Below, piece by piece: positions 2,100 through 24,893 of a DNA stretch of 64,000 nucleotides (position 1 is the first letter of the stretch; each line of letters opens with the position of its first letter). The position numbers were made by a program, and so were the translations under genes. Below the pieces are notes generated by a model that had not been told where the DNA came from, searched no databases, and saw only the letters and a program-made list of their open reading frames with translations. The DNA is from a virus. The DNA lies in IMG/VR virus record IMGVR_UViG_3300044633_000899, positions 149,306 through 213,305 of that record. One strand, 5' to 3'.

Positions 2100-3267
2100 A
2101 GTAATTTTTTATTTTAGTAATTAATTCTTTGTAATCAAAATCATAAATTAAATTTAATTCATTATCCATACAAAATTTGTTTTTTATTTTAACTTTTTCG
2201 TAATACTTTGACAAAGTAGTGTCTAACTTATCTAAGTTTTTTTTATTTAATAAACCATAGTACTCAATATATAAGTCGTTATCAACTAAATAGAAATCTG
2301 ATTTTAAATTGCTATTTGGGTATGTTTTCTCGTATATAAAGTTAATATTTTTTGATTCAAGATATAATGCAATTCTATATTCACCGACACTCTTGTACCT
2401 AATACCATTATGATAGACGACAATACCATAATATTGTCTATTTTGATTTAAATCTATTTTTTTATAAAAAATATCTTTAATCTCACTATGTGAGATATTA
2501 AACACATTATGAATAACACTACTATTTATATATGGTAAAAGATCAGAATACCTTTTTATATCATCATTAACAATAATACAATCAACAAAGTCTTTAATAT
2601 CACTTTTACCAGAACATTTTGTTATTACACCCATTGTTTTTTCTGAGTAGTTTGCAAATTTGAATAAAGTTTCTTTATCTTTAATATCATACTTAAATAT
2701 ATTTTTAGTTTTTTGTATTTCACCATAAGTTTCTTTAGATTTTAAAGTTGTTATCCATTTTTGTTGTCTTTTATTAAACATCTCTTTACCAATATCTTCA
2801 CCGTATTTTTCAATACATTTAGAAAAACTAAAAGTACTTTGCCTGTCTTTTAGTTTTTGACTAGCGTCAACATCAGAATAACCTTTATTTAACCAATACT
2901 CAATCCTATTTGTGTAACTATTTTTAAATTTTTCCGGGTTATTTCGTTTCTCATTAACCAATACCTGACTGTTCTTTTTTTGTTTATCACTTATAAATTT
3001 CTCAATATCATTAAGTTCCCAACCCATAGAAAGTAAAAAATCTTTATTATATATTGAATTAGGGTAGTTTAAGATACTTTTTAATATCGGTTTAACTTTT
3101 TTAATACCTATTGTTGGTGTCTTACTAATTAGATCTTCAATCTTAGGTTTATCTATAGAATTAAATTTAATAAAAAATTTATATAAATTTAAATCAATGA
3201 TGAACTTTTCAAAATCATTAACGGTTAAAATATCCGCAATTACCACACTTCTTTTCTTAATTAACAT
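2089..3267 (-). CDS. Free-standing Vsr-like homing endonuclease lying between the split clpC halves
   Basis: The 392-aa protein probably cuts an intein-less clpC allele. The N-terminal half looks like a DNA-binding region, with an YWLNKGYSDVDA repeat followed by CIEKYGEDIGKEMFNKRQ, as seen in phage homing endonucleases. The C-terminal third (about residues 285-392) has the Vsr / very-short-patch nuclease pattern: YKSVGEYRIALYLE, then YEKTYPNSNLKSDFYL and YIEYYGL, carrying the acidic and Ser/Asp residues of that fold. The first ATG is at 3267; a TTG at 3294 would add nine residues. A TATTTATT box sits 35 bases upstream, directly after the stop of the N-half ORF, so the gene probably has its own late promoter. 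Known fractured split-intein genes carry the same nuclease family. Confidence 0.83.
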   Translation of the reverse strand: MLIKKRSVVIADILTVNDFEKFIIDLNLYKFFIKFNSIDKPKIEDLISKTPTIGIKKVKPILKSILNYPNSIYNKDFLLSMGWELNDIEKFISDKQKKNSQVLVNEKRNNPEKFKNSYTNRIEYWLNKGYSDVDASQKLKDRQSTFSFSKCIEKYGEDIGKEMFNKRQQKWITTLKSKETYGEIQKTKNIFKYDIKDKETLFKFANYSEKTMGVITKCSGKSDIKDFVDCIIVNDDIKRYSDLLPYINSSVIHNVFNISHSEIKDIFYKKIDLNQNRQYYGIVVYHNGIRYKSVGEYRIALYLESKNINFIYEKTYPNSNLKSDFYLVDNDLYIEYYGLLNKKNLDKLDTTLSKYYEKVKIKNKFCMDNELNLIYDFDYKELITKIKNYYEN

Positions 3268-3302
3268 AGTATAACAGGACTTGGGATATACCAAACCCTA
3301 AT

Positions 3303-3310
3303 AATAAATA
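3303..3310 (-). promoter_or_regulatory. TATTTATT late-promoter-like box
   Basis: The box reads TATTTATT on the minus strand. It abuts the TGA of the clpC N-half ORF and lies 35 bases before the endonuclease ATG. Confidence 0.5.
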
Positions 3311-3601
3311 TCACATTGTTTCAATATTATGTGTATTAACATCAGAAATTTTTTCAACTTCAATCCAAGTATCCTCTAAAACACATCCAGGTTCGCCGAT
3401 TATAATAGGATTATTCTTTTTTCTTCTGGATAAAATTTGTGCAATACGTAGTATTTCTTGTTCTCTACCAATAACAGGGTCTAATTTACCTTGTTCGGCT
3501 AACTTAATTAAATCTTTACTGAAATTATCTAAAACTGGTGTTCCAGAATTAGTTTCTTTCTTTTTGTTTTTTTCATTTTCATCTGCGAATTCTATTGCCA
3601 T
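3311..3601 (-). CDS. clpC: N-terminal fragment of split ClpC plus 24-aa intein N-part
   Basis: The 96-aa ORF holds the start of ClpC domain D1 (residues 21-72: [41 protein letters not shown]), followed at Cys73 by a 24-residue intein N-part that ends in a genuine TGA. There is no ClpN substrate-binding domain; a short charged leader precedes D1. The extein ends exactly at GEPG, the first half of a Walker A motif. Joined to the CGKT of the distal ORF it gives GEPGCGKT, so neither product alone can bind ATP. The gene is transcribed divergently from the UVR-domain gene at 3761 across a palindrome-rich control region. Confidence 0.93.
3314..3385 (-). other. N-part of an atypically split intein (24 aa)
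   Basis: The part begins with Cys1 and the block A pattern [10 protein letters not shown], then a short linker and a stop. A 24-residue N-part is far shorter than the roughly 90-100 residues of DnaE- or gp41-type split inteins. It matches the roughly 25-residue N-parts of the atypical TerL-type class. Its partner is encoded at 1701-2099. Confidence 0.88.
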
Positions 3602-3619
3602 ATTTAAAAGTTTTATCTA

Positions 3620-3679
3620 ATGTTAGTAATATTAAATGTTATTGTCAACTGTTGACACTTTGTCATATTCAATTATAAT
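3620..3679. promoter_or_regulatory. Divergent sigma70-like promoter pair between split clpC and the UVR gene
   Basis: To the right, TTGACA (3652-3657) and TATAAT (3674-3679) with a 16-base spacer match the bacterial consensus. To the left, TTGACA (minus strand, 3643-3648) is followed 17 bases later by TAACAT. The two -35 hexamers are the two halves of the 15-bp palindrome TGTCAACTGTTGACA. No late-type TATTTAT box lies in this gap, so this pair may be an early promoter. Confidence 0.5.
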
Positions 3680-3698
3680 TAAACCTGACAAAGTGTCA
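3643..3698. repeat. Cluster of operator-like palindromes
   Basis: Three dyads occur here: TGTCAACTGTTGACA (3643-3657), TGACACTTTGTCA (3653-3665) and TGACAAAGTGTCA (3686-3698). The last two are exact reverse complements of each other, and each is itself TGACA-nnn-TGTCA. They overlap the -35 region and lie just downstream of the rightward -10. The outer pair followed by a T run (3700-3705) could also form a hairpin attenuator. Confidence 0.5.
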
Positions 3699-3760
3699 GT
3701 TTTTTATTGTGGTATAAAATTGGTCAATAAAAAAGAAAATAAACTTAAAAAAATAATAAT

Positions 3761-5274: not shown

Positions 5275-6588
5275 ATGGGAGGACTAAAACCTATTGGAAG
5301 TGAGAAATTACAAGGAATGGATAAAATCCGTAGAATTATGGAGATTGCCCGATATAACGAAAATATTCCACAACCATTGAATGAAACTGGTAAGGATGAG
5401 TATTCGGTAACGTTTGCTGATGGTAATGTATACACAATTGTTAAAGAAAAATTGGGTTATATTATAAAAAAATCATTAAACGAAAGTGAAACAGATTATT
5501 TAGGTTCTATTACGGAACGAAAATACTATAATTCATATTCACAAGCACTAAAACGTTTAAACTTAATGATTAAGGAGGTTAATACGTTGGTTGGTAATAA
5601 AACTGGAATCTCATTATTTGAAGGTGACGATGTAAAAAAAAAATATACATTAAAACTACCAACTAAAAAAGAAACTAACGAAGGTCTTGATTTGGAACTA
5701 GACGAACAAGTTCCTGCACCAGTTCCTGCACCTCAACCTACTGAACCTCAACAACCAGCGCCGGCGCCAGTTCCCGCACCTCAACCAGTTGAACCTCAAC
5801 CAGAAATGGGTAATGAAGAAGATATGATGGGTGATGAAGAAGATATGATGGGTGATGAAGAAGATATGGATGATATTCCAATGGATGATGAATCGGATAA
5901 AAAAGGTGAAGAGGTTAGTTTTAAAACAATTCAAAAATTAACAGGTCGTTTAACCCAAAAAATTAGAAAATATACACAAGAAGATGAAATGAGTTCAGAT
6001 GATACAAAATATATCATAAATTCAATTTTATCTTCATTAGATTTAGATGTATTAGATGACGACGATGTTGACCAAATAATTGACAGATTAGAAGGTGATG
6101 ATACCGAAGACGACGAAGATTTTAATGATGGTGAAGATATGGATGTACCAATGGACGATGAAATGATGGAACCCGATATGGATGTAACACCAGAACCACC
6201 ATTAGCACCAGAACCAACATCTGAACTTGGTGAAGATATGGATGAATACCCAAGACACGGTGCAATGTTAAATAGACATAAACATCTGACACACGGAACT
6301 TTCGGTGAATCAACAGTAGATCAGATTATTTCTAACTATTTTAAAATAGATGAAAATGAAATGTTAGTAAAAGAAGAAGAAACTAGAAAAAAATTACTTT
6401 ATAATCAAGCAAAAAATAAAAAATACATTAAACAATTATCAGAAAGTGTTAACCAGGAACGTGCTGCGTTTAAATTAATTGAGAATTATCCAAATTCAAA
6501 AATAATGGGTAAATCAAAAACTGGTAATTTAATATTTAAAAATAAAGATAAAAAATACTATATTACAAGTAACGGTAAATTTATATGA
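5275..6588 (+). CDS. Acidic, proline-rich phage protein, possible virion/core protein
   Basis: The 437-aa protein has a folded N-terminus (residues 1-145), then a Pro-Ala-Gln segment (APVPAPQPTEP, about 143-180) and Met-Asp/Glu runs with a threefold DEEDMMG repeat. A short helical region (about 218-275) is followed by a second acidic Pro-rich linker and a basic C-terminus with a KKYYITSNGKFI ending. No enzyme motif is visible. The composition resembles phage head-core and internal proteins, and the gene lies just upstream of the terminase/head block. It overlaps the next ORF by 4 bases (ATGA). A structural role is inference. Confidence 0.6.
   Translation: MGGLKPIGSEKLQGMDKIRRIMEIARYNENIPQPLNETGKDEYSVTFADGNVYTIVKEKLGYIIKKSLNESETDYLGSITERKYYNSYSQALKRLNLMIKEVNTLVGNKTGISLFEGDDVKKKYTLKLPTKKETNEGLDLELDEQVPAPVPAPQPTEPQQPAPAPVPAPQPVEPQPEMGNEEDMMGDEEDMMGDEEDMDDIPMDDESDKKGEEVSFKTIQKLTGRLTQKIRKYTQEDEMSSDDTKYIINSILSSLDLDVLDDDDVDQIIDRLEGDDTEDDEDFNDGEDMDVPMDDEMMEPDMDVTPEPPLAPEPTSELGEDMDEYPRHGAMLNRHKHLTHGTFGESTVDQIISNYFKIDENEMLVKEEETRKKLLYNQAKNKKYIKQLSESVNQERAAFKLIENYPNSKIMGKSKTGNLIFKNKDKKYYITSNGKFI
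5806..5868 (+). repeat. 21-bp in-frame triplication
   Basis: Three near-identical units encode (N/D)EEDMMG, inside the acidic linker of the gene at 5275. Confidence 0.75.
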
Positions 6589-9280: not shown

Positions 9281-11053
9281 ATGGGATTAACAAAAGAACA
9301 ATTAATGTTAGAGTATGTTAAGTGTATGAAAGATACACCATACGCATTAAGGACATATTTACAAACATACGATAATACGGTTTCAAAATATGTACCATTA
9401 GAACTATTTCCAGATCAAATATCATTATTAGATGATTATGAAAATTACGAAGAAAATATCGCATTAAAATATCGTCAGGCTGGTGTATCAACAGTTACCG
9501 CAGCGTGGATGTCAAAAAGATTAGTTTTCGCAAAAAAAGAACGTCCAGAAAAAATTCTAATTATTGCCAACAAACTTGATACATCAATGGAGATGGCAAA
9601 TAAAATCAGAGGTTTTGTTGATCAATGGCCAAGTTGGGTTGGTACTGGGTTTTCCGTGGATAAAAATTCACAACGACACTATAAATTAACTAATGGTTGT
9701 GAGGTTAAAGCCGTTGCAACATCACGAGATGCGTTAAGGGGTTATACACCAACAATACTTGTATTTGATGAGGCCGCCTTTATTGAAGCAGATGGTGATT
9801 TCTGGGCTGCGTGTATGGCTTCCCTATCTACAGGGGGTAAGGTTATTGTTGTATCAACACCAAATGGTTATGATGCAATATATTATGAAATATACAACCA
9901 AGCAACAAAGGGAATGAATAATTTTAAAATCTCTGAGATGTTTTGGTGGAAAGACCCAAGATACTCTAAAAATTTATATTTAGTTCCAACAGATGATCTC
10001 GTTGATTTTCTACTAAATAAAGACGATAGAGATCAAACAAAAAACATATCTTTTGAAGATTCGGATCCATATAACAGAGATTATGATAAGATTAAGGAAT
10101 TATTCAAAGAGGGTTACAAACCTTGTTCATCTTGGTATGAAAAAATGGTTAAAAAATTAAAATATGATAAACGAAAAATTAACCAAGAGTTAAATTGTGA
10201 GTTTTTAGGATCCGGTGATAACGTATTTGATTCAAAACAATTGGACTATATAAAAACAAACACACTTGAAGACGCACCAACTAAATTAATGGGTAACGCA
10301 TTATGGATTTGGAAAGATCCAGTACCAGGACATAAGTATATTATTGGTGTAGACGTTAGTAGAGGTGATAGTGAGGATTTCTCATCTATTCAAATTGTAG
10401 ATTTTGATGAACGAGAACAAGTTTTAGAATATGTTGGAAAAATACCCCCAGACGCTTTAGCTGAAATAGCATATAAATGGGGAATAATATATAATGCGTT
10501 TTGTGTTGTGGATATTACTGGTGGTATGGGTATTACTACGGTAAGGAAAATGCAAGAATTGGGTTATAGTGGGTTTTATATTGAGGGTGTTGATTCAATG
10601 AATATTTGGGCTGTCAATAAAACTAGTGTGGATAAAATCCCTGGGATTAATTTTAACAATAAACGAGTTCAAATTATTGCAGCATTTGAAGAATATGTTA
10701 GACATAAGTTTAAAATAAAAAGTGTACGTCTATATAATGAAATGAATACGTTTGTCTATGTGAATGGTAGACCAGATCATCAAAAAGGGCAACACGATGA
10801 CCTTATAATGGGTATATCAATGGCGATTTACGTTGGTGAATCCGCATTCCAAAAATTAGAAAAAGTAACAGAAAAAACAAAAATAATGATTGAATCTTGG
10901 ACTGTTGCTGACAATAATAATTTATCTAAACAGATTCATTTTGATCCTGCAATACCAAATACAAATGTTATGAATGATAGGTTTGGTGGAACACATAATA
11001 ACCCAACAAGAAATGATTATATTGAATATAGTTGGTTATTTGGTAAACGTTAA
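9281..11053 (+). CDS. terL: Terminase large subunit (gp17-like ATPase/nuclease)
   Basis: The 590-aa protein packages DNA into the prohead. The ATPase domain shows RQAGVST (residues 65-71) in the Walker A position, Walker B ILVFDEAAF (Asp163-Glu164) and the coupling motif VVSTPNG (190-196). The RNaseH-like nuclease domain shows GVDVSRGD (Asp358), VVDITGG (Asp411) and QHDDLIMG (Asp506-Asp507), the three acidic sites that hold metal. Walker A lacks the usual Lys at GKS/T, a variant seen in some phage terminases with a basic residue just upstream (here LKYRQ). No small subunit was recognised. It starts a new unit after a terminator. Confidence 0.96.
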   Translation: MGLTKEQLMLEYVKCMKDTPYALRTYLQTYDNTVSKYVPLELFPDQISLLDDYENYEENIALKYRQAGVSTVTAAWMSKRLVFAKKERPEKILIIANKLDTSMEMANKIRGFVDQWPSWVGTGFSVDKNSQRHYKLTNGCEVKAVATSRDALRGYTPTILVFDEAAFIEADGDFWAACMASLSTGGKVIVVSTPNGYDAIYYEIYNQATKGMNNFKISEMFWWKDPRYSKNLYLVPTDDLVDFLLNKDDRDQTKNISFEDSDPYNRDYDKIKELFKEGYKPCSSWYEKMVKKLKYDKRKINQELNCEFLGSGDNVFDSKQLDYIKTNTLEDAPTKLMGNALWIWKDPVPGHKYIIGVDVSRGDSEDFSSIQIVDFDEREQVLEYVGKIPPDALAEIAYKWGIIYNAFCVVDITGGMGITTVRKMQELGYSGFYIEGVDSMNIWAVNKTSVDKIPGINFNNKRVQIIAAFEEYVRHKFKIKSVRLYNEMNTFVYVNGRPDHQKGQHDDLIMGISMAIYVGESAFQKLEKVTEKTKIMIESWTVADNNNLSKQIHFDPAIPNTNVMNDRFGGTHNNPTRNDYIEYSWLFGKR

Positions 11054-11353: not shown

Positions 11354-13438
11354 ATGGATAAAAGAATAACCGATTTAGATTTAATACAATTTAGTTCTAT
11401 TTCTTCTAATGATGTATTACCAATTATTAATATTAATACTGATGATACCAATAAAATAACAATAGACCAGATAAAGACTTATGTTAACTCTGGAGTTACT
11501 GATACTTACGTAACTGGTGGTACATATGTAACTGGTGGTACGATTATTTTTGATTATAATACGGGTAGTAATTTTGAAGTTAGTGGATTAACTGAAGATT
11601 TAAATAATGAAATTGCTGGACTTGCTGAGGCCGATGAACAAACAATTACATTAAATTTAGATACAAATAAAATAGAATTAAAAGAAACTATTGCCGAAGC
11701 AACTGGTGGGACAAGAACGTTTCAAGGTGATTTTGCAATAAGTGGGGGGACATTGAATTTGACCACAATTGGTTCAGGTTCACCAGTTATTAACTTGGGA
11801 TTGGATTCAAGTGGTGAAGTTGTAACTGGAACAACATCATTCACTGGAAACACATCTGGTGAATGTATTAGTGATATATATGTGTCAAATGTTCATTCTT
11901 GTTCGCCATTACACATTAATCCAAATGATGAAGGAAATGTTTATTTCGGTTCAACAAGTGGTGTAACTGTTGATTTAATAAATCATAAATTGGTTGTTGA
12001 AAATCTTCAAATAACATCTGGTGCGACTGATGGTTATATTTTAACCTCTGATGCTAATGGAAATATTGAATTAACCGCACCAACTGATGGGTTTACATAT
12101 CAAATTGGTCAATATGTTGAAGAAGAGGGGGGTGTAATATTTCATAGTTATAAAGATGGTATAAATGAAAACTATTTGGTTGTTTCAATTGATGACCAAG
12201 CTGGCTTAGATTGCGATACAATTAGTGTTACTTACACTTTAGAAGGTGGAGAGCCTGTTACGGTGGAGGTGGAAAGTAGTGGGGAATTTGAGGGAAAACC
12301 TTATTATGAAATAGAAATTAGCGGAGAAACTTATACCTTAGAATGGAATGTTTTAGGTTATTGGAAACTTCAGAGTGAAGGCAGACTTTCATCCGACAAC
12401 CCCTGCCCTTTCGGAACTTACGCAATTGAAGAAGAAAGCATCTTTGAATCGTTCAGTGTTGCACCAGTCTTATCTGTTTGGAGTAATATAACCAACCAAT
12501 TGGCTGGTGCTGATAGTACTTGGAATGGTTTAGAAAATAGTTTAACAATAACTGGTCAAACTGGACATGCAGAAAGTGCCGCACAATTGTGTTTGGAATA
12601 TGTTAATGGTGGTTGCAACACAATTTCAGTCACTTATCAATTAAATGGTAATTCTTATATACACGTTTCTTTTGTATTTGAAGGTCAAACTTACAATTAT
12701 GATGTACCAAAAGTAGGAATAGAAGAAGGTAAAAATCATTATAACATTTCAACAGAAGGACTTTACGTAGATTTAGTTTATGACAGTGTAGATTGGTTTT
12801 TTGAAATTAATGTAGGAACATTATATTCTTTATATTATAACACAAGTGATACAGAATTTCCGATTTTTAATAATTGGATAATTGGGGGTGATTATAATGT
12901 AATTGATAATTTAATAACAACCGCACCAGAGCCTGTAACGGTGGAGGTGGAGAGTAGTGGTGAATTACATGGTAAGCCATATTATTTGATTCCAGAACTT
13001 GGAGAAATTTTAGGATGGGGCGCAGTTAATGAAACAGATGAGGAATGGCAGTTAGAATACTCTTCTGTTTTTCCATACCTTTCAGAGGATACCCCTTGCC
13101 CTTTTGGTGCTTACACACTAGAAGAAGGTAGTCCATTTGAAGCATTTGAGGTTTCGCCTGTTAACTACAAAAACGACTGGTATCTACCAGCTATTGATGA
13201 ATTAAGTTTACTTTGGCAAAACAGATTTAATGTAAATAGAACTTTATCAGGTAATTCAAGTGCTAGTACTATAGCTGGTGCTACTCAAATTGGTTATAAT
13301 ACTTATTGGAGTAGTACGGAGGCCGACTTCAACCGCGCGTGGATCTTCTACTTCGGCTTTGGGAGTGCCAGCAACGGCATCGGTTCCGATAAGAGCCGCA
13401 CCTACTATGTGCGTGCAATAAGAAAATTTAGTATATAA
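11354..13438 (+). CDS. Fibre-like protein with C-terminal DUF1566/lectin-type variable domain (probable DGR target)
   Basis: The 694-aa protein begins with a phage fibre-type N-terminus (KRITDLDLIQF, then INTDDTNKITIDQIKTYV) and a Gly/Thr-rich stretch typical of trimeric fibres. Two related modules follow, at about residues 300-377 and 523-600, sharing VTVEVESSGE, GKPYY and PCPFG(T/A)Y. The last 85 residues form a DUF1566 / Fib_succ-like C-type lectin domain, with DWYLPAIDELSLLW, YWSSTE and the final YYVRAIRKF. The last 40 codons are G+C-rich and dominated by NNC codons, unlike the rest of the gene. This is what adenine-specific mutagenesis of AAC codons by a diversity-generating retroelement produces. 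It is probably a receptor-binding protein. Confidence 0.8.
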   Translation: MDKRITDLDLIQFSSISSNDVLPIININTDDTNKITIDQIKTYVNSGVTDTYVTGGTYVTGGTIIFDYNTGSNFEVSGLTEDLNNEIAGLAEADEQTITLNLDTNKIELKETIAEATGGTRTFQGDFAISGGTLNLTTIGSGSPVINLGLDSSGEVVTGTTSFTGNTSGECISDIYVSNVHSCSPLHINPNDEGNVYFGSTSGVTVDLINHKLVVENLQITSGATDGYILTSDANGNIELTAPTDGFTYQIGQYVEEEGGVIFHSYKDGINENYLVVSIDDQAGLDCDTISVTYTLEGGEPVTVEVESSGEFEGKPYYEIEISGETYTLEWNVLGYWKLQSEGRLSSDNPCPFGTYAIEEESIFESFSVAPVLSVWSNITNQLAGADSTWNGLENSLTITGQTGHAESAAQLCLEYVNGGCNTISVTYQLNGNSYIHVSFVFEGQTYNYDVPKVGIEEGKNHYNISTEGLYVDLVYDSVDWFFEINVGTLYSLYYNTSDTEFPIFNNWIIGGDYNVIDNLITTAPEPVTVEVESSGELHGKPYYLIPELGEILGWGAVNETDEEWQLEYSSVFPYLSEDTPCPFGAYTLEEGSPFEAFEVSPVNYKNDWYLPAIDELSLLWQNRFNVNRTLSGNSSASTIAGATQIGYNTYWSSTEADFNRAWIFYFGFGSASNGIGSDKSRTYYVRAIRKFSI
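13307..13417 (+). other. Candidate DGR variable region
   Basis: It runs from the Trp of YWSST to the end of YYVRA. About 20 of 37 codons end in C, encoding A, D, F, N, R, I, Y, G, S and T at positions where DUF1566 relatives often have Asn. The 100 bases at 13321-13420 contain 57 G/C by hand count, far above the local background. No reverse transcriptase or template repeat was found in the window. Confidence 0.7.
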
Positions 13439-13476: not shown

Positions 13477-13512
13477 AAAAACCGAAAGATGTGAATAACC
13501 CTTCGGTTTTTA
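13477..13512 (+). terminator. Rho-independent terminator after the fibre gene
   Basis: The stem AAAAACCGAA (13477-13486) pairs with TTCGGTTTTT (13502-13511) across a 15-base loop. Confidence 0.8.
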
Positions 13513-13567: not shown

Positions 13568-16500
13568 ATGGAAAAACAAAATCTAACGATATGGCAAAAA
13601 CTATCCAAAACATTTGGACCAAACTCTCTTTTGGGTATGGATCAAGCGTCAGTAACATTGGATAAAAATGTTTTATTAAAAACAACAGATAAAGCACAAT
13701 ACGATAAAGAAAAATTAGAATATCAACAAAGTTTATTTTTAAGTAATCAATGGCAAAAAATAGAAAACAACTTATACGCCCAAGCGGTATATTATGAACC
13801 AAACCGAATTGCCGCTTTTTATGATTACGAATCGATGGAATTTATGCCGGAAATATCAACGGCATTAGATATCTATTCAGAAGAATCAACAACCCCTAAT
13901 CAAGATGGTTATGTTTTACAAATATATTCAGAGTCAAAAAGAATTAAATCAATTTTGGCCGATTTATTTAATAACATTTTAGATATTAATATCAATCTAC
14001 CAATGTGGATTAGAAACACACCAATTAGAGAGAATTGTATGATACCATTATTAGATGGTACAGAAGTAACGATAAAAGAATTAAGTGATAGGGTTAAGAA
14101 TGGTGAGGATGTTTGGTCTTATTCAATACAAGATGGAACGAAAGTAATTGTACCTAGTAAAATTATATGGTGTGATTTAACTAGGAAAAATAGTGAACTC
14201 TATAGAGTTACTCTGGATGATGGTACATACATTGATACAACACCAGATCACGAATATATGCTTAGAGACGGATCATTTAAACGAGCCGATAAGTTAACCA
14301 AAGGTCAATCTTTAATGCCGTTTTATACTAAAAAAAGTGAAAAGAAAAAAGACCGAATTGCTGGGTATGAAAAGGTATTTAACCCAAGTACAGGAAAATA
14401 TAAATTTACACATACGATGGTTTCACATATATGTGTGAGAGATTTAGATAATGAAAAAACAATTGGTGAACAATTTGACACACATCACGTTGATTTCAAT
14501 AAACTAAATAATCATCCAAAAAATTTGGATAGAATGAAACATTCGGATCATTTTAAACTACACTCGGAACATTTTATTAAGATTTTAGGTTCACCAGAAG
14601 TTGTTAAGAAAAGAATGGATGGTATTGATAGATATTTGCGTTCTGAGAAACGGAAACAAAGATTATCCAAAGAAATGACTGGTATCTATAATAAATATTT
14701 TGAGAAATATAACAATAGTGAATTACATACTGAACACAATATAATTCGTTCAAATAAAATGTTAAATAACTGGAGAGATAATAATTTTATAGAAAAAACA
14801 AAAAAGGGGATGACGATTGAAATAAATGATAATTGTTTGTCCTATATTTCCACAGTAATTAAAAACAGTGAAACTTATATTGGTATATACGAATTATCAA
14901 ATATTCTTAAATCTGATAGTGAGTTTATCAAACTATTTAAACAAAACTATACATTAAATAAAGATATTACAAAATCAATTAATGCGACAACCTTAAAAAA
15001 AGTCATTTTAAGAAAAACAAATAAAAATTATTTTGATTTTGTTTCCAATATTAAACCAGAAATTATTTTAGATAAAAAATATATTAAAGCGAGGTCAATC
15101 TTTGAGGGAAAAACTAAAGTAAAAATTATTAATCACAAAGTTGTTTCAGTTGTTAAACTAAACGAAACGTCAGATGTTTATTGTTTAGAAGCAGTTGGTC
15201 CAAATGGAGAACACGATAGACATAATTTTCCGGTTTGTGGTTTTAACTTAAATGGTGAATACTCTAGAGAATCAGGTGTGTTTTTGTCCAACTGTAAGTA
15301 TGGCGATAATTTCGTATACCTAAAATTAGACGAAGAAAAAGGGATTACTGGTTGTTTACAACTACCTAATATTGAAATTGAACGATTAGAAAGAGGTATG
15401 TCGGTAAGAACAATGAATGCTGTTGTTAGTTCCCCCACCCCATCCGATGTAAACAGTAAAGGGTTAAGGTTTGTCTGGAAAACCAAAGATATGGAGTTTA
15501 ATACGTGGGAAATGGCACATTTTAGACTACTTGGTGATGATAGAAAATTACCTTATGGTACATCAATGTTAGAGAAAGCACGTCGTGTTTGGAAACAGTT
15601 AGTACTAGCGGAAGACGCTATGTTAATTTACAGAACGTCACGAGCACCAGAACGAAGAGTATTTAAAGTATTTGTTGGAAATATGGATGATAAGGACGTT
15701 GAACCTTACGTACAACGTGTTGCGAATAAATTCAAACGAGACCAAGTTGTTGATAGTAAAACAGGAAATGTGGATATGAGATACAATCAAATGGCGGTTG
15801 ATCAAGATTATTTTATCCCAGTACGAGATCCAGGACAAACAATGCCAATTGAGACATTACCTGGTGCTCAAAACCTATCAGAAATTGCGGATATTGAGTA
15901 CATACAAAAGAAACTACTAACAGCATTAAGAATACCAAAAGCATTTTTAGGATTTGAGGAACCTGTTGGTAGTGGCGACAATTTGTCTTTAATGGATATT
16001 AGGTTCGCACGAACAATCAATAAGATTCAAAAAAGTATGATTGCCGAATTAAATAAAATTGCAATTATCCATTTATTTATATTAGGTTTTGAGGATGAGT
16101 TAAATAACTTTACGTTAGGATTAACAAACCCTTCAAAACAAGCCGATTTATTAATGGTTTCAGTTTGGAAAGAAAAAGTATTATTATATAAAGATTTAGT
16201 TAGTGAAATACCAAATACATTACAACCAACATCAGCAACCTGGGCTAAAAAACATATCTTTGGATTCTCTGATGAAGATATTAAACTTGAAATTCAACAA
16301 ATTAGATTGGAGAGAGCTGTTGCTGCGGAATTAACAAATACACCGACAATTATAACACACACTGGTATGTTTGATATTGTTGACAAATTATACAAAACAG
16401 CAAGTGGTGATACCACAACAGCACCACCAGCAGAAGGAGGAATGCCACCTCCACCACCTGCAGAAGGAGGAGGAATGGGTGATATACCACCACCACCACC

Positions 16501-16663
16501 AAGTGGGGGTGAAGCACCTTTGATGGATAGTGTTGAGAAATCAAATTATAATATATTAGTTGAGAGTAATGATTTAGAGGCTGATGATTTTATTGATTTA
16601 TCTAAAGGACGTAATTCGTTGGGGTTAATTGAAAAAGAATTGGATAAATTACTAAATGGTTGA
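13568..16663 (+). CDS. Portal protein (gp20-like) interrupted in frame by an HNH intein
   Basis: The 1031-aa precursor should splice to a 612-aa portal, the dodecameric DNA channel at the head vertex. Extein 1 is residues 1-156. Extein 2 starts at Cys576 (CKYGDNFVYLK) and carries gp20-like segments: MLIYRTSRAPERRVFKVFVGNM, YFIPVRD and ETLPGAQNLSEIADIEYIQKKL (long motif at about residues 690-790). The C-terminus has a Pro/Gly-rich tail (MPPPPPAEGGG) after residue 940, longer than usual. A TATTTATA box for the next gene lies at the stop. It begins the portal-core-protease-capsid block. Confidence 0.95.
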   Translation: MEKQNLTIWQKLSKTFGPNSLLGMDQASVTLDKNVLLKTTDKAQYDKEKLEYQQSLFLSNQWQKIENNLYAQAVYYEPNRIAAFYDYESMEFMPEISTALDIYSEESTTPNQDGYVLQIYSESKRIKSILADLFNNILDININLPMWIRNTPIRENCMIPLLDGTEVTIKELSDRVKNGEDVWSYSIQDGTKVIVPSKIIWCDLTRKNSELYRVTLDDGTYIDTTPDHEYMLRDGSFKRADKLTKGQSLMPFYTKKSEKKKDRIAGYEKVFNPSTGKYKFTHTMVSHICVRDLDNEKTIGEQFDTHHVDFNKLNNHPKNLDRMKHSDHFKLHSEHFIKILGSPEVVKKRMDGIDRYLRSEKRKQRLSKEMTGIYNKYFEKYNNSELHTEHNIIRSNKMLNNWRDNNFIEKTKKGMTIEINDNCLSYISTVIKNSETYIGIYELSNILKSDSEFIKLFKQNYTLNKDITKSINATTLKKVILRKTNKNYFDFVSNIKPEIILDKKYIKARSIFEGKTKVKIINHKVVSVVKLNETSDVYCLEAVGPNGEHDRHNFPVCGFNLNGEYSRESGVFLSNCKYGDNFVYLKLDEEKGITGCLQLPNIEIERLERGMSVRTMNAVVSSPTPSDVNSKGLRFVWKTKDMEFNTWEMAHFRLLGDDRKLPYGTSMLEKARRVWKQLVLAEDAMLIYRTSRAPERRVFKVFVGNMDDKDVEPYVQRVANKFKRDQVVDSKTGNVDMRYNQMAVDQDYFIPVRDPGQTMPIETLPGAQNLSEIADIEYIQKKLLTALRIPKAFLGFEEPVGSGDNLSLMDIRFARTINKIQKSMIAELNKIAIIHLFILGFEDELNNFTLGLTNPSKQADLLMVSVWKEKVLLYKDLVSEIPNTLQPTSATWAKKHIFGFSDEDIKLEIQQIRLERAVAAELTNTPTIITHTGMFDIVDKLYKTASGDTTTAPPAEGGMPPPPPAEGGGMGDIPPPPPSGGEAPLMDSVEKSNYNILVESNDLEADDFIDLSKGRNSLGLIEKELDKLLNG
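14036..15292 (+). other. Portal intein with embedded HNH endonuclease (419 aa)
   Basis: The intein is precursor residues 157-575. Block A begins at Cys157 (CMIPLLDGTEV). Block B is TTPDHEYM with His228. An HNH-type nuclease core lies at about residues 304-335 (THHVDFNKLNNHPKNLDRM, then a distal KLH). Block F/G is VYCLEAVG, HNFPVCG and a terminal FLSN before Cys576. The penultimate residue is Ser instead of the usual His, and about 12 extra residues separate HNF from the C-terminus. It is inserted at a highly conserved portal site, REN/CKYGDNF. Confidence 0.93.
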
Positions 16664-23168: not shown

Positions 23169-24893
23169 ATGAAAACTAAATTAACACCCGAAGATATAGT
23201 AAGTATTATTGAATTGTATCAAACCGAAATTCCAAGTACACATAAGTTGGGTGTAAAATTTAAAGTTGGTCATAAAAAAATTAGTCAGATCTTAAAAGAA
23301 AATAATATTGTGATTAATAAAAAAGGTGGTCAAACTCAAGATGGTAATAGTTATAATATTGAGTCAACTAAAAGTAAAATGTATGTGTCGTCGGAAACAC
23401 GGGAATTAGTTGCACAATGTAAGAGAACTAATACCATTGTAAAAGATCCAAATAATTTATCTGGTAAACTAACAAAACATATAGTTGATGTTTATGGTGA
23501 CGTTTGGATCCCGACAAATACTTACCAGAGAAAAAAATATGAACATCACAATGGTAAAAAGTGGTTTGAGGAATATTTCAATATAATTGAGATTGATAAA
23601 CAATCAAAAAGAACCTGTAAATTATGTGATTGGGAAACAATGGATATAAATAATAAAACTGGTTGTTTTGAGAGTCATATAGGTAAAGTTCATAATCAAA
23701 AACTATCTGAATATCTAACCACATTTCCTGAAGATATTGTTTATCACCCAAATTACGTAAATAATATAAATCATTCTGTTTTTTTATCTAAAGATAAAAA
23801 TTATATTATATGTAAGATATGTGGTGAAAAAATGAAAAGTATCACAAATACACATTTAAAAGAAAAACATAATATAACAACGTTAGAGTATAAGTTAAAA
23901 TTTCCAAATGAGAAAATAGTATCAACAACAACTTCTGAAAAGTTGAGTGAGTTGATTATTAATACCAATATCAATATGACGCCAACCTGGACATCAAAAG
24001 GTGAAAATGAAATAAAAGAATTTATTGAGAGTCTTGGGTTTATTGTTAATAAAGGTAAAAATCGTAAATTATTAAATGGTAAAGAAATTGATCTAATTAT
24101 TGATGGTACAAATATCTGTATTGAATACAATGGGTTATACTACCACACAGAAAAAATGGGTAAAACAAGTACCTACCATTTGAATAAAACACTTGAATGT
24201 AATAAAATTGGGTATAAGTTATTCCATATTTATGAAGATGAGTGGAAAACCAATGAATCGTTGGTTAAATCAAAATTAAAACACTTATTAAAGATCAATG
24301 GTGGTATTAGAATTGGTGGTAGAAATGTTGTGATTAAAACTATTACCAACGAAGATAAATCACATTTTTTAAAAAACAACCATATCCAAGGAACTGATAA
24401 ATCTAAAATATCATATGGTGCGTACTATAAAGACATATTGGTTGGTGTTATGACATTCAACGAAAAACGTAATATGACTAAAAATTCTGATAATGAATTT
24501 GAGTTAAGTAGATATGCGACAAAACAAGATTATATTGTCACAGGTTTAGCGTCAAAAATGTTAAAGCGATTTATAAACGACTATAATCCAAATACGATTA
24601 TCAGTTTCGCCGATAGGAGATGGACAATAGATGGTGATAATAATTTATACACTAAATTGGGTTTTTCTTTGGTCTCAATAGTAAAACCAACATATTATTA
24701 TTATAGTTCAAAAATTAGTAGGTATAAACGTTTCCATAAATTTGGTTTTGGTAAAAATAACCTTAAAAAAAGATTCCCCAATTTGGATTATACTAAAACG
24801 GAAAAAGAATTAACTGAAGAGTTGGGCTATGACCGTATATGGGATTGTGGGTTATTTAAATATCAATTAAACATTAAAAACTTTAGCCTATAA
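23169..24893 (+). CDS. Homing endonuclease, zinc-finger + Vsr-like nuclease + GNAT-like C-terminal domain
   Basis: The 574-aa protein starts with an HTH-like segment (THKLGVKFKVGHKKISQILK). Two zinc-finger-like motifs follow: CKLCDWE...H...H near residue 155 and CKICGEKMKSI...H near 217. The nuclease region (about 275-375) has NEIKEFIESLGF, NGKEIDLIIDG, CIEYNGLYYH and HIYEDEW, the Vsr/PD-(D/E)xK pattern. The last 190 residues (ISYGAYYKDILVGVMTF, then SFADRRW, LYTKLGFSLV) look GNAT-like and are shared with the protein at 25544. It is an intergenic mobile element between capsid and tail tube genes. Confidence 0.8.
   Translation: MKTKLTPEDIVSIIELYQTEIPSTHKLGVKFKVGHKKISQILKENNIVINKKGGQTQDGNSYNIESTKSKMYVSSETRELVAQCKRTNTIVKDPNNLSGKLTKHIVDVYGDVWIPTNTYQRKKYEHHNGKKWFEEYFNIIEIDKQSKRTCKLCDWETMDINNKTGCFESHIGKVHNQKLSEYLTTFPEDIVYHPNYVNNINHSVFLSKDKNYIICKICGEKMKSITNTHLKEKHNITTLEYKLKFPNEKIVSTTTSEKLSELIINTNINMTPTWTSKGENEIKEFIESLGFIVNKGKNRKLLNGKEIDLIIDGTNICIEYNGLYYHTEKMGKTSTYHLNKTLECNKIGYKLFHIYEDEWKTNESLVKSKLKHLLKINGGIRIGGRNVVIKTITNEDKSHFLKNNHIQGTDKSKISYGAYYKDILVGVMTFNEKRNMTKNSDNEFELSRYATKQDYIVTGLASKMLKRFINDYNPNTIISFADRRWTIDGDNNLYTKLGFSLVSIVKPTYYYYSSKISRYKRFHKFGFGKNNLKKRFPNLDYTKTEKELTEELGYDRIWDCGLFKYQLNIKNFSL

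Follow-up and report, generated by a model that had tools for sequence, protein, structure and literature searches.

The fibre-like gene and its 3' end

The window, i.e., the whole stretch of 64,000 nucleotides analysed here, contains a gene for a protein of 694 amino acids, which is located between the genes for a T4-like terminase (9281-11053) and the portal (13568-16663). Judged from the gene position, the N-terminus, which is common to L008, and the domain found at the other end, the protein is probably a fibre. Its C-terminal end consists of an Lcl_C/DUF1566 domain, which is a frequent target domain of diversity-generating retroelements (DGRs; PMC4159848), and a variable region (VR) sits at the 3' end of the gene. 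Limits and framework of this VR were defined by comparison with a bacterial template repeat (TR) described below:

11354..13438, + strand: fibre-like phage gene, open reading frame of 694 amino acids with the VR at its 3' end
13166..13423, + strand: Lcl_C (PF07603) match, target domain of the DGR (residues 605-690, E 1.2e-8)
13304..13416, + strand: DGR variable region as assigned here, 113 nt, first bases TATTGG (13304), last bases GTGCGTGC (up to 13416)
13304..13321, + strand: 5' framework TATTGGAGTAGTACGGAG, common to the phage VR and the TR (sequence comparison with the TR)
13409..13416, + strand: GTGCGTGC, all that the phage retains of the bacterial IMH (sequence comparison)
13480..13508, + strand: inverted repeat AACCGAA...TTCGGTT followed by a T run, 3' of the stop codon (direct sequence reading)

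The VR has a G+C content of 56.6% compared to 30.3% in the window and 33.8% in the remainder of the gene, and 20 of its 37 codons are of the type NNC, while the 15,309 stretches of 37 codons in the open reading frames of the window contain on average 3.4 and in the best other gene 12 such codons. These values agree with the preliminary description of the window, in which a switch to NNC codons (about 20 of 37) and 57% G+C had been noticed at the end of the fibre gene. The odd segment, which was placed at 13307-13438, is real, but its true span is 13304-13416, and the end given earlier takes in a further 22 nt, which are normal phage sequence and include the stop codon. Upstream of TATTGGAGTAGTACGGAG the phage and TR sequences diverge, and 3' of GTGCGTGC the sequence is phage-specific, which sets the 5' and the 3' limit of the exchange. 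The inverted repeat behind the gene was not scored as a tight hairpin in the hairpin scan, and by its sequence it looks like an ordinary terminator, not like the hairpin of bacterial VRs.

Two long modules, which start near 'AGLDCDTISVTY' and 'GCNTISVTYQL', are inserted in the Lcl_C domain of the fibre-like protein; they resemble each other like repeats and are absent from the phage and bacterial relatives. AlphaFold predictions for the window domain and one relative, with a mean pLDDT of 47 and 40, were of too low quality to locate the variable residues. Two further G+C-rich spots of the window, near 5700 and 16420, were rejected as VRs since they are Pro-rich and Gly/Pro-rich low-complexity coding sequence. 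Other genes of the window show features of their own: the portal gene carries an intein with an HNH endonuclease-type insert, the gene at 23169-24893 has a ROS/MucR and MTES_1575 nuclease-type match, and the gene at 25544-27160 matches DUF7487 and a Mom-like DNA modification protein.

A bacterial template and the turnover of phage variable regions

A TR matching the window VR is present in L055, a chromosomal locus of the Chitinophagaceae MAG ZH-Oct18-54, which contains a complete DGR with an Lcl_C target, Avd, TR and reverse transcriptase (RT):

799-1764: secreted Lcl_C target with VR
1823-2167: Avd (bAvd, 1e-21)
about 2271-2400: AAC-rich TR
2458-3726: RT with the DGR motif IGNLTSQ and a YVDD box

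Compared to this TR, the window VR is changed at 22 adenines and at none of the 61 non-adenine sites, and it carries in addition an in-frame insert of 9 nt; an alternative alignment, in which the insert is placed slightly differently, yields 21 adenine changes. Over 22 distinct phage or viral alleles, 412 of 946 adenine sites are changed compared to 26 of 1342 other sites, and as these alleles are related and not independent, the p-value should not be taken literally, while the contrast itself is beyond doubt. The framework codons do not vary, not even at their silent sites, and the adenine-derived sites take all four bases. A match at all non-adenine sites was also the criterion for remote targets in Treponema denticola and Thiohalocapsa PB-PSB1 (PMC4891356, PMC10907252). 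The assignment of this segment as a genuine DGR variable region, which was the core of the preliminary description, is strongly supported.

A scan with the invariant framework positions only (GCGTGG NNC TTC NNC TTC NNC NNT GGG) had 33 matches among viral contigs and 13 among bacterial genomes; 11 of the latter have the same layout, and all of these come from Bacteroidota MAGs. L055 is the only bacterial locus with the exact TR, and it is devoid of the 9-nt insert of the window VR, which counts against the reading that a host DGR writes the phage gene. Most bacterial MAGs with a window-type VR showed no matching TR or RT in their own assembly; this can be an assembly effect, and because such loss is frequent, the absence is not used as evidence. 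Neither the TR nor the VR had a DNA match in annotated phage and plasmid records, and at the protein level there were only two weak phage matches. Matches of a TR 18-mer outside the VR family (L047, L048, L050) and of a second TR pattern (L083-L085) were discarded as unrelated coding sequence.

In near-identical phage pairs, the VR differs by 18-25% and the flanks by 1-3%. The flanks of L035 and L037 differ by 1-2%, and their VRs differ at 21 of 104 sites, 20 of these at template adenines; for L017 and L046, with flanks differing by about 3%, the VR shows 26 differences, of which 25 fall on template adenines. This concentration of variation in the VR comes from these two pairs, and for the window lineage the comparison comprises an identical copy from another metagenome (L003) and more distant relatives. 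Such VR-limited divergence between near-identical phages argues against the idea that the VRs are frozen relics, and together with the adenine-specific differences from the bacterial TR it upholds the earlier suggestion that the 3' end of the fibre gene is a DGR VR. Where the adjacent flanks are identical, the VRs are identical as well, which together with the copy L003 shows that alleles persist long enough to appear in several samples. In one phage homologue (L015:2289-2537), the C-terminal Lcl_C segment keeps the protein framework in A+T-rich sequence without the template codons and is perhaps a former VR that is no longer rewritten.

The bacterial VRs share a long 3' end, in which GTGCGTGC is followed by GTTCGGGCTT, and in several of them a hairpin ACCGCGAAGCGGT is found about 45 nt further on. 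The phage VRs keep only GTGCGTGC and contain neither the remaining 3' half of this IMH nor the hairpin behind it; some of the phage VRs of the control set described below are also without a clear tight hairpin. In the Bordetella phage BPP-1, disruption of the hairpin lowered tropism switching more than 1000-fold (PMC3240598). These differences do not fit well with writing by a host DGR; the phage targets may be poor recipients, they may use another signal, or they may be filled via recombination with bacterial VRs.

A record of 79 kb (L039) contains two adjacent small Lcl_C genes, one with a type-B VR, which resembles in its design bacterial TRs like those of L087 and L245, and one with a type-A VR like that of the window. 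In its body, the type-A gene shares 92% identity with a type-B gene in L142, and the simplest reading of these sequences would be that one kind of gene has been overwritten from a different template. Small Lcl_C genes with VRs also stand in tandem, with a spacing of about 344 bp, in phage records without RT (five at L142:5313-6717, three at L147:3235-3948 and two at L039:8315-8992).

Absence of the retroelement machinery from the phages

The window is part of a record of 296,330 bases, in which the first and the last 174 bases are the same stretch (99.4% identity, exactly at both ends). The phage genome thus closes on itself and looks complete; IMG/VR did not class the record as complete. The components of a self-contained DGR, i.e., RT, TR and Avd in the same genome, were all not found in this record: searches for RVT_1, for Avd (PF22296), and for a TR or a second copy of the VR were negative. 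The preliminary description had correctly placed RT and template outside the window, and this turned out to be incomplete, as neither is present anywhere in the record as far as this can be tested. It had also proposed that lack of a template repeat and a DGR-type RT in the complete genome would refute the VR. This is the wrong test for VR status, because the VR is identified through a template in another genome.

The absence extends to the relatives. RVT_1 was found in 0 of about 36-37 further viral records with such a VR, and Avd was likewise absent from 24 of these window-type records. On both sides of the VR, 23 of the 34 window-type viral records contain at least 2 kb, and 11 of the 34 contain less than 2 kb on one side. 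Three separate exact patterns revealed no window-type TR in 2.9 million viral contigs, and a search with the L055 RT, which sees close relatives only, had no match among the viral contigs. L049, a viral record of 18 kb in which RVT_1 is absent, contains two related G+C-rich segments of another AAC-rich repeat type (at 1596 and 3298, with a spacing of 1.7 kb), which are possibly another TR/VR pair lacking an RT.

As a control, we used records with a sister VR type (AW.Q.F, compared to AW.F.F in the window type), which is common in proteobacterial-type prophages; their assignment to groups was made by eye, using the framework, prior to the RT search. The same search as for the window type detected RVT_1 in 28 of 40 sister-type records overall and in 26 of the 27 records of proteobacterial type. 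Between the RT and the nearest VR the median distance is 992 bp (25 records, including two of Bacteroidota type), a TR is often visible adjoining the VR, and Avd was present in eight of eight phage-encoded control DGRs tested and in both bacterial DGRs. Among the sister records of Bacteroidota type, 11 of 13 are without RT, and the other two (L125 and L217) carry RT and TR. As the control finds the RT in the sister type, its absence is a property of the window-type phages and not of the method, which also argues against a mere loss of TR and RT from the phage assemblies.

Probable supply in trans, alternative explanations and known systems

We consider it probable that the phage carries the target only and receives RT, Avd and TR in trans; their likeliest source would be a chromosomal DGR of a Bacteroidota host or another element residing in this host. 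In the infected cell, the host or resident DGR would reverse-transcribe the TR RNA with errors at adenines, the mutagenised cDNA would replace the segment of the phage gene between TATTGGAGTAGTACGGAG and GTGCGTGC, and progeny phages would carry new C-type-lectin-like, presumably receptor-binding faces on the fibre. For BPP-1, avd, TR and brt supplied from a plasmid diversify the VR on the phage (PMC3240598), and the adjacent L039 genes with VRs of two template types also speak for this reading. Against it count, besides the missing IMH tail and hairpin, the short flanks in 11 of the 34 viral records and the sister records of Bacteroidota type, which were grouped by eye and of which two carry RT and TR. 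With some hesitation, we favour a wider picture, in which many Bacteroidota phages keep stand-alone VRs, sometimes in tandem, that are rewritten by the DGR of the infected cell, so that host retroelements may act as shared mutators of viral receptor-binding genes and one lineage may be writable from several template types.

An unlikely alternative, albeit one with evidence in its favour, is that already diversified VR segments were captured by recombination via short shared frameworks from bacterial DGR targets or other phages, without any cDNA. The Lcl_C domain of the phage shares 51-55% identity with the bacterial DGR targets L053, L055 and L059, which indicates that genes have moved between bacteria and phages, and the lack of the bacterial IMH tail and hairpin in the phage VRs would also fit with capture. 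However, the exchanged segment has shared ends of just 18 bp and 8-11 bp across many unrelated gene contexts, no phage allele is identical to a bacterial allele in the set compared, and retrohoming requires only about 8 bp of homology at the 5' end, which in BPP-1 suffices to complete homing (PMC3240598).

Phage DGRs are regarded as self-contained cassettes, which they usually are, and variable loci can drop out of metagenome assemblies, so that a DGR of the phage's own, with RT and TR missed or lost in assembly, has to be considered. This is rendered very improbable by the overlapping ends of the record, by the detection of RVT_1 in 28 of 40 controls compared to 0 of 38 here, and by the lack of a TR in any viral contig searched and of Avd in the record. 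That no DGR is involved at all, and that a G+C-rich lectin piece was horizontally acquired and is under diversifying selection, is a reading that foreign origin alone would lend some credit, as it can cause a jump in G+C content and codon use. It is already refuted in practice by framework codons that are fixed at silent sites next to adenine-derived sites with all four bases, by the unchanged 61 non-adenine sites of the window VR, and by the existence of a matching TR-Avd-RT locus.

There are earlier accounts of DUF1566 targets, of remote targets and of phage DGRs (PMC4159848, PMC4891356, PMC8144416), and in open-access papers, preprints excluded, we found no report of phage VRs without own DGR that are served by a host DGR. 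Surveys requiring a VR beside an RT miss remote targets, as stated by Roux et al. (PMC8144416), and are likewise blind to stand-alone phage VRs; a search should therefore seek the template framework and not the RT. If phages use host DGRs in trans, hypermutated phage proteins are undercounted, changes of receptor specificity would depend on the DGR of the previous host, and bacterial DGRs would carry a cost, as they help phages to vary, which bears on their rare and patchy occurrence.

Among the closest known systems, L055 has a TR that agrees with the window VR at every non-adenine site and a target domain that is 55% identical to the phage domain. It differs in that its target is a secreted bacterial protein, the complete cassette lies in cis, and its VR keeps the full IMH (GTTCGGGCTT after GTGCGTGC) and the hairpin, both of which the window phage lacks. 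A relative of L055 with another TR type is L087, a Bacteroidota chromosomal DGR with an Lcl_C target. Self-contained DGRs of phages and prophages with the AW.Q.F type (L119, L122, L137, L217) share the target domain, the AAC-rich template design and the adenine-derived variability, but they possess their own RT, Avd and TR near the VR. The DGR of the Bordetella phage BPP-1 (mtd, avd, TR, brt) is similar in that its receptor-binding gene, with a C-type-lectin-like target, ends in an adenine-specific VR; unlike the window phage, which has neither the machinery nor such a tight hairpin, it contains its own avd, TR and brt beside mtd and a hairpin after the VR. In Treponema denticola (PMC4891356) and Thiohalocapsa PB-PSB1 (PMC10907252), remote VRs likewise depend in trans on a TR and an RT encoded elsewhere, but there donor and target reside in one genome, whereas here they belong to different organisms.
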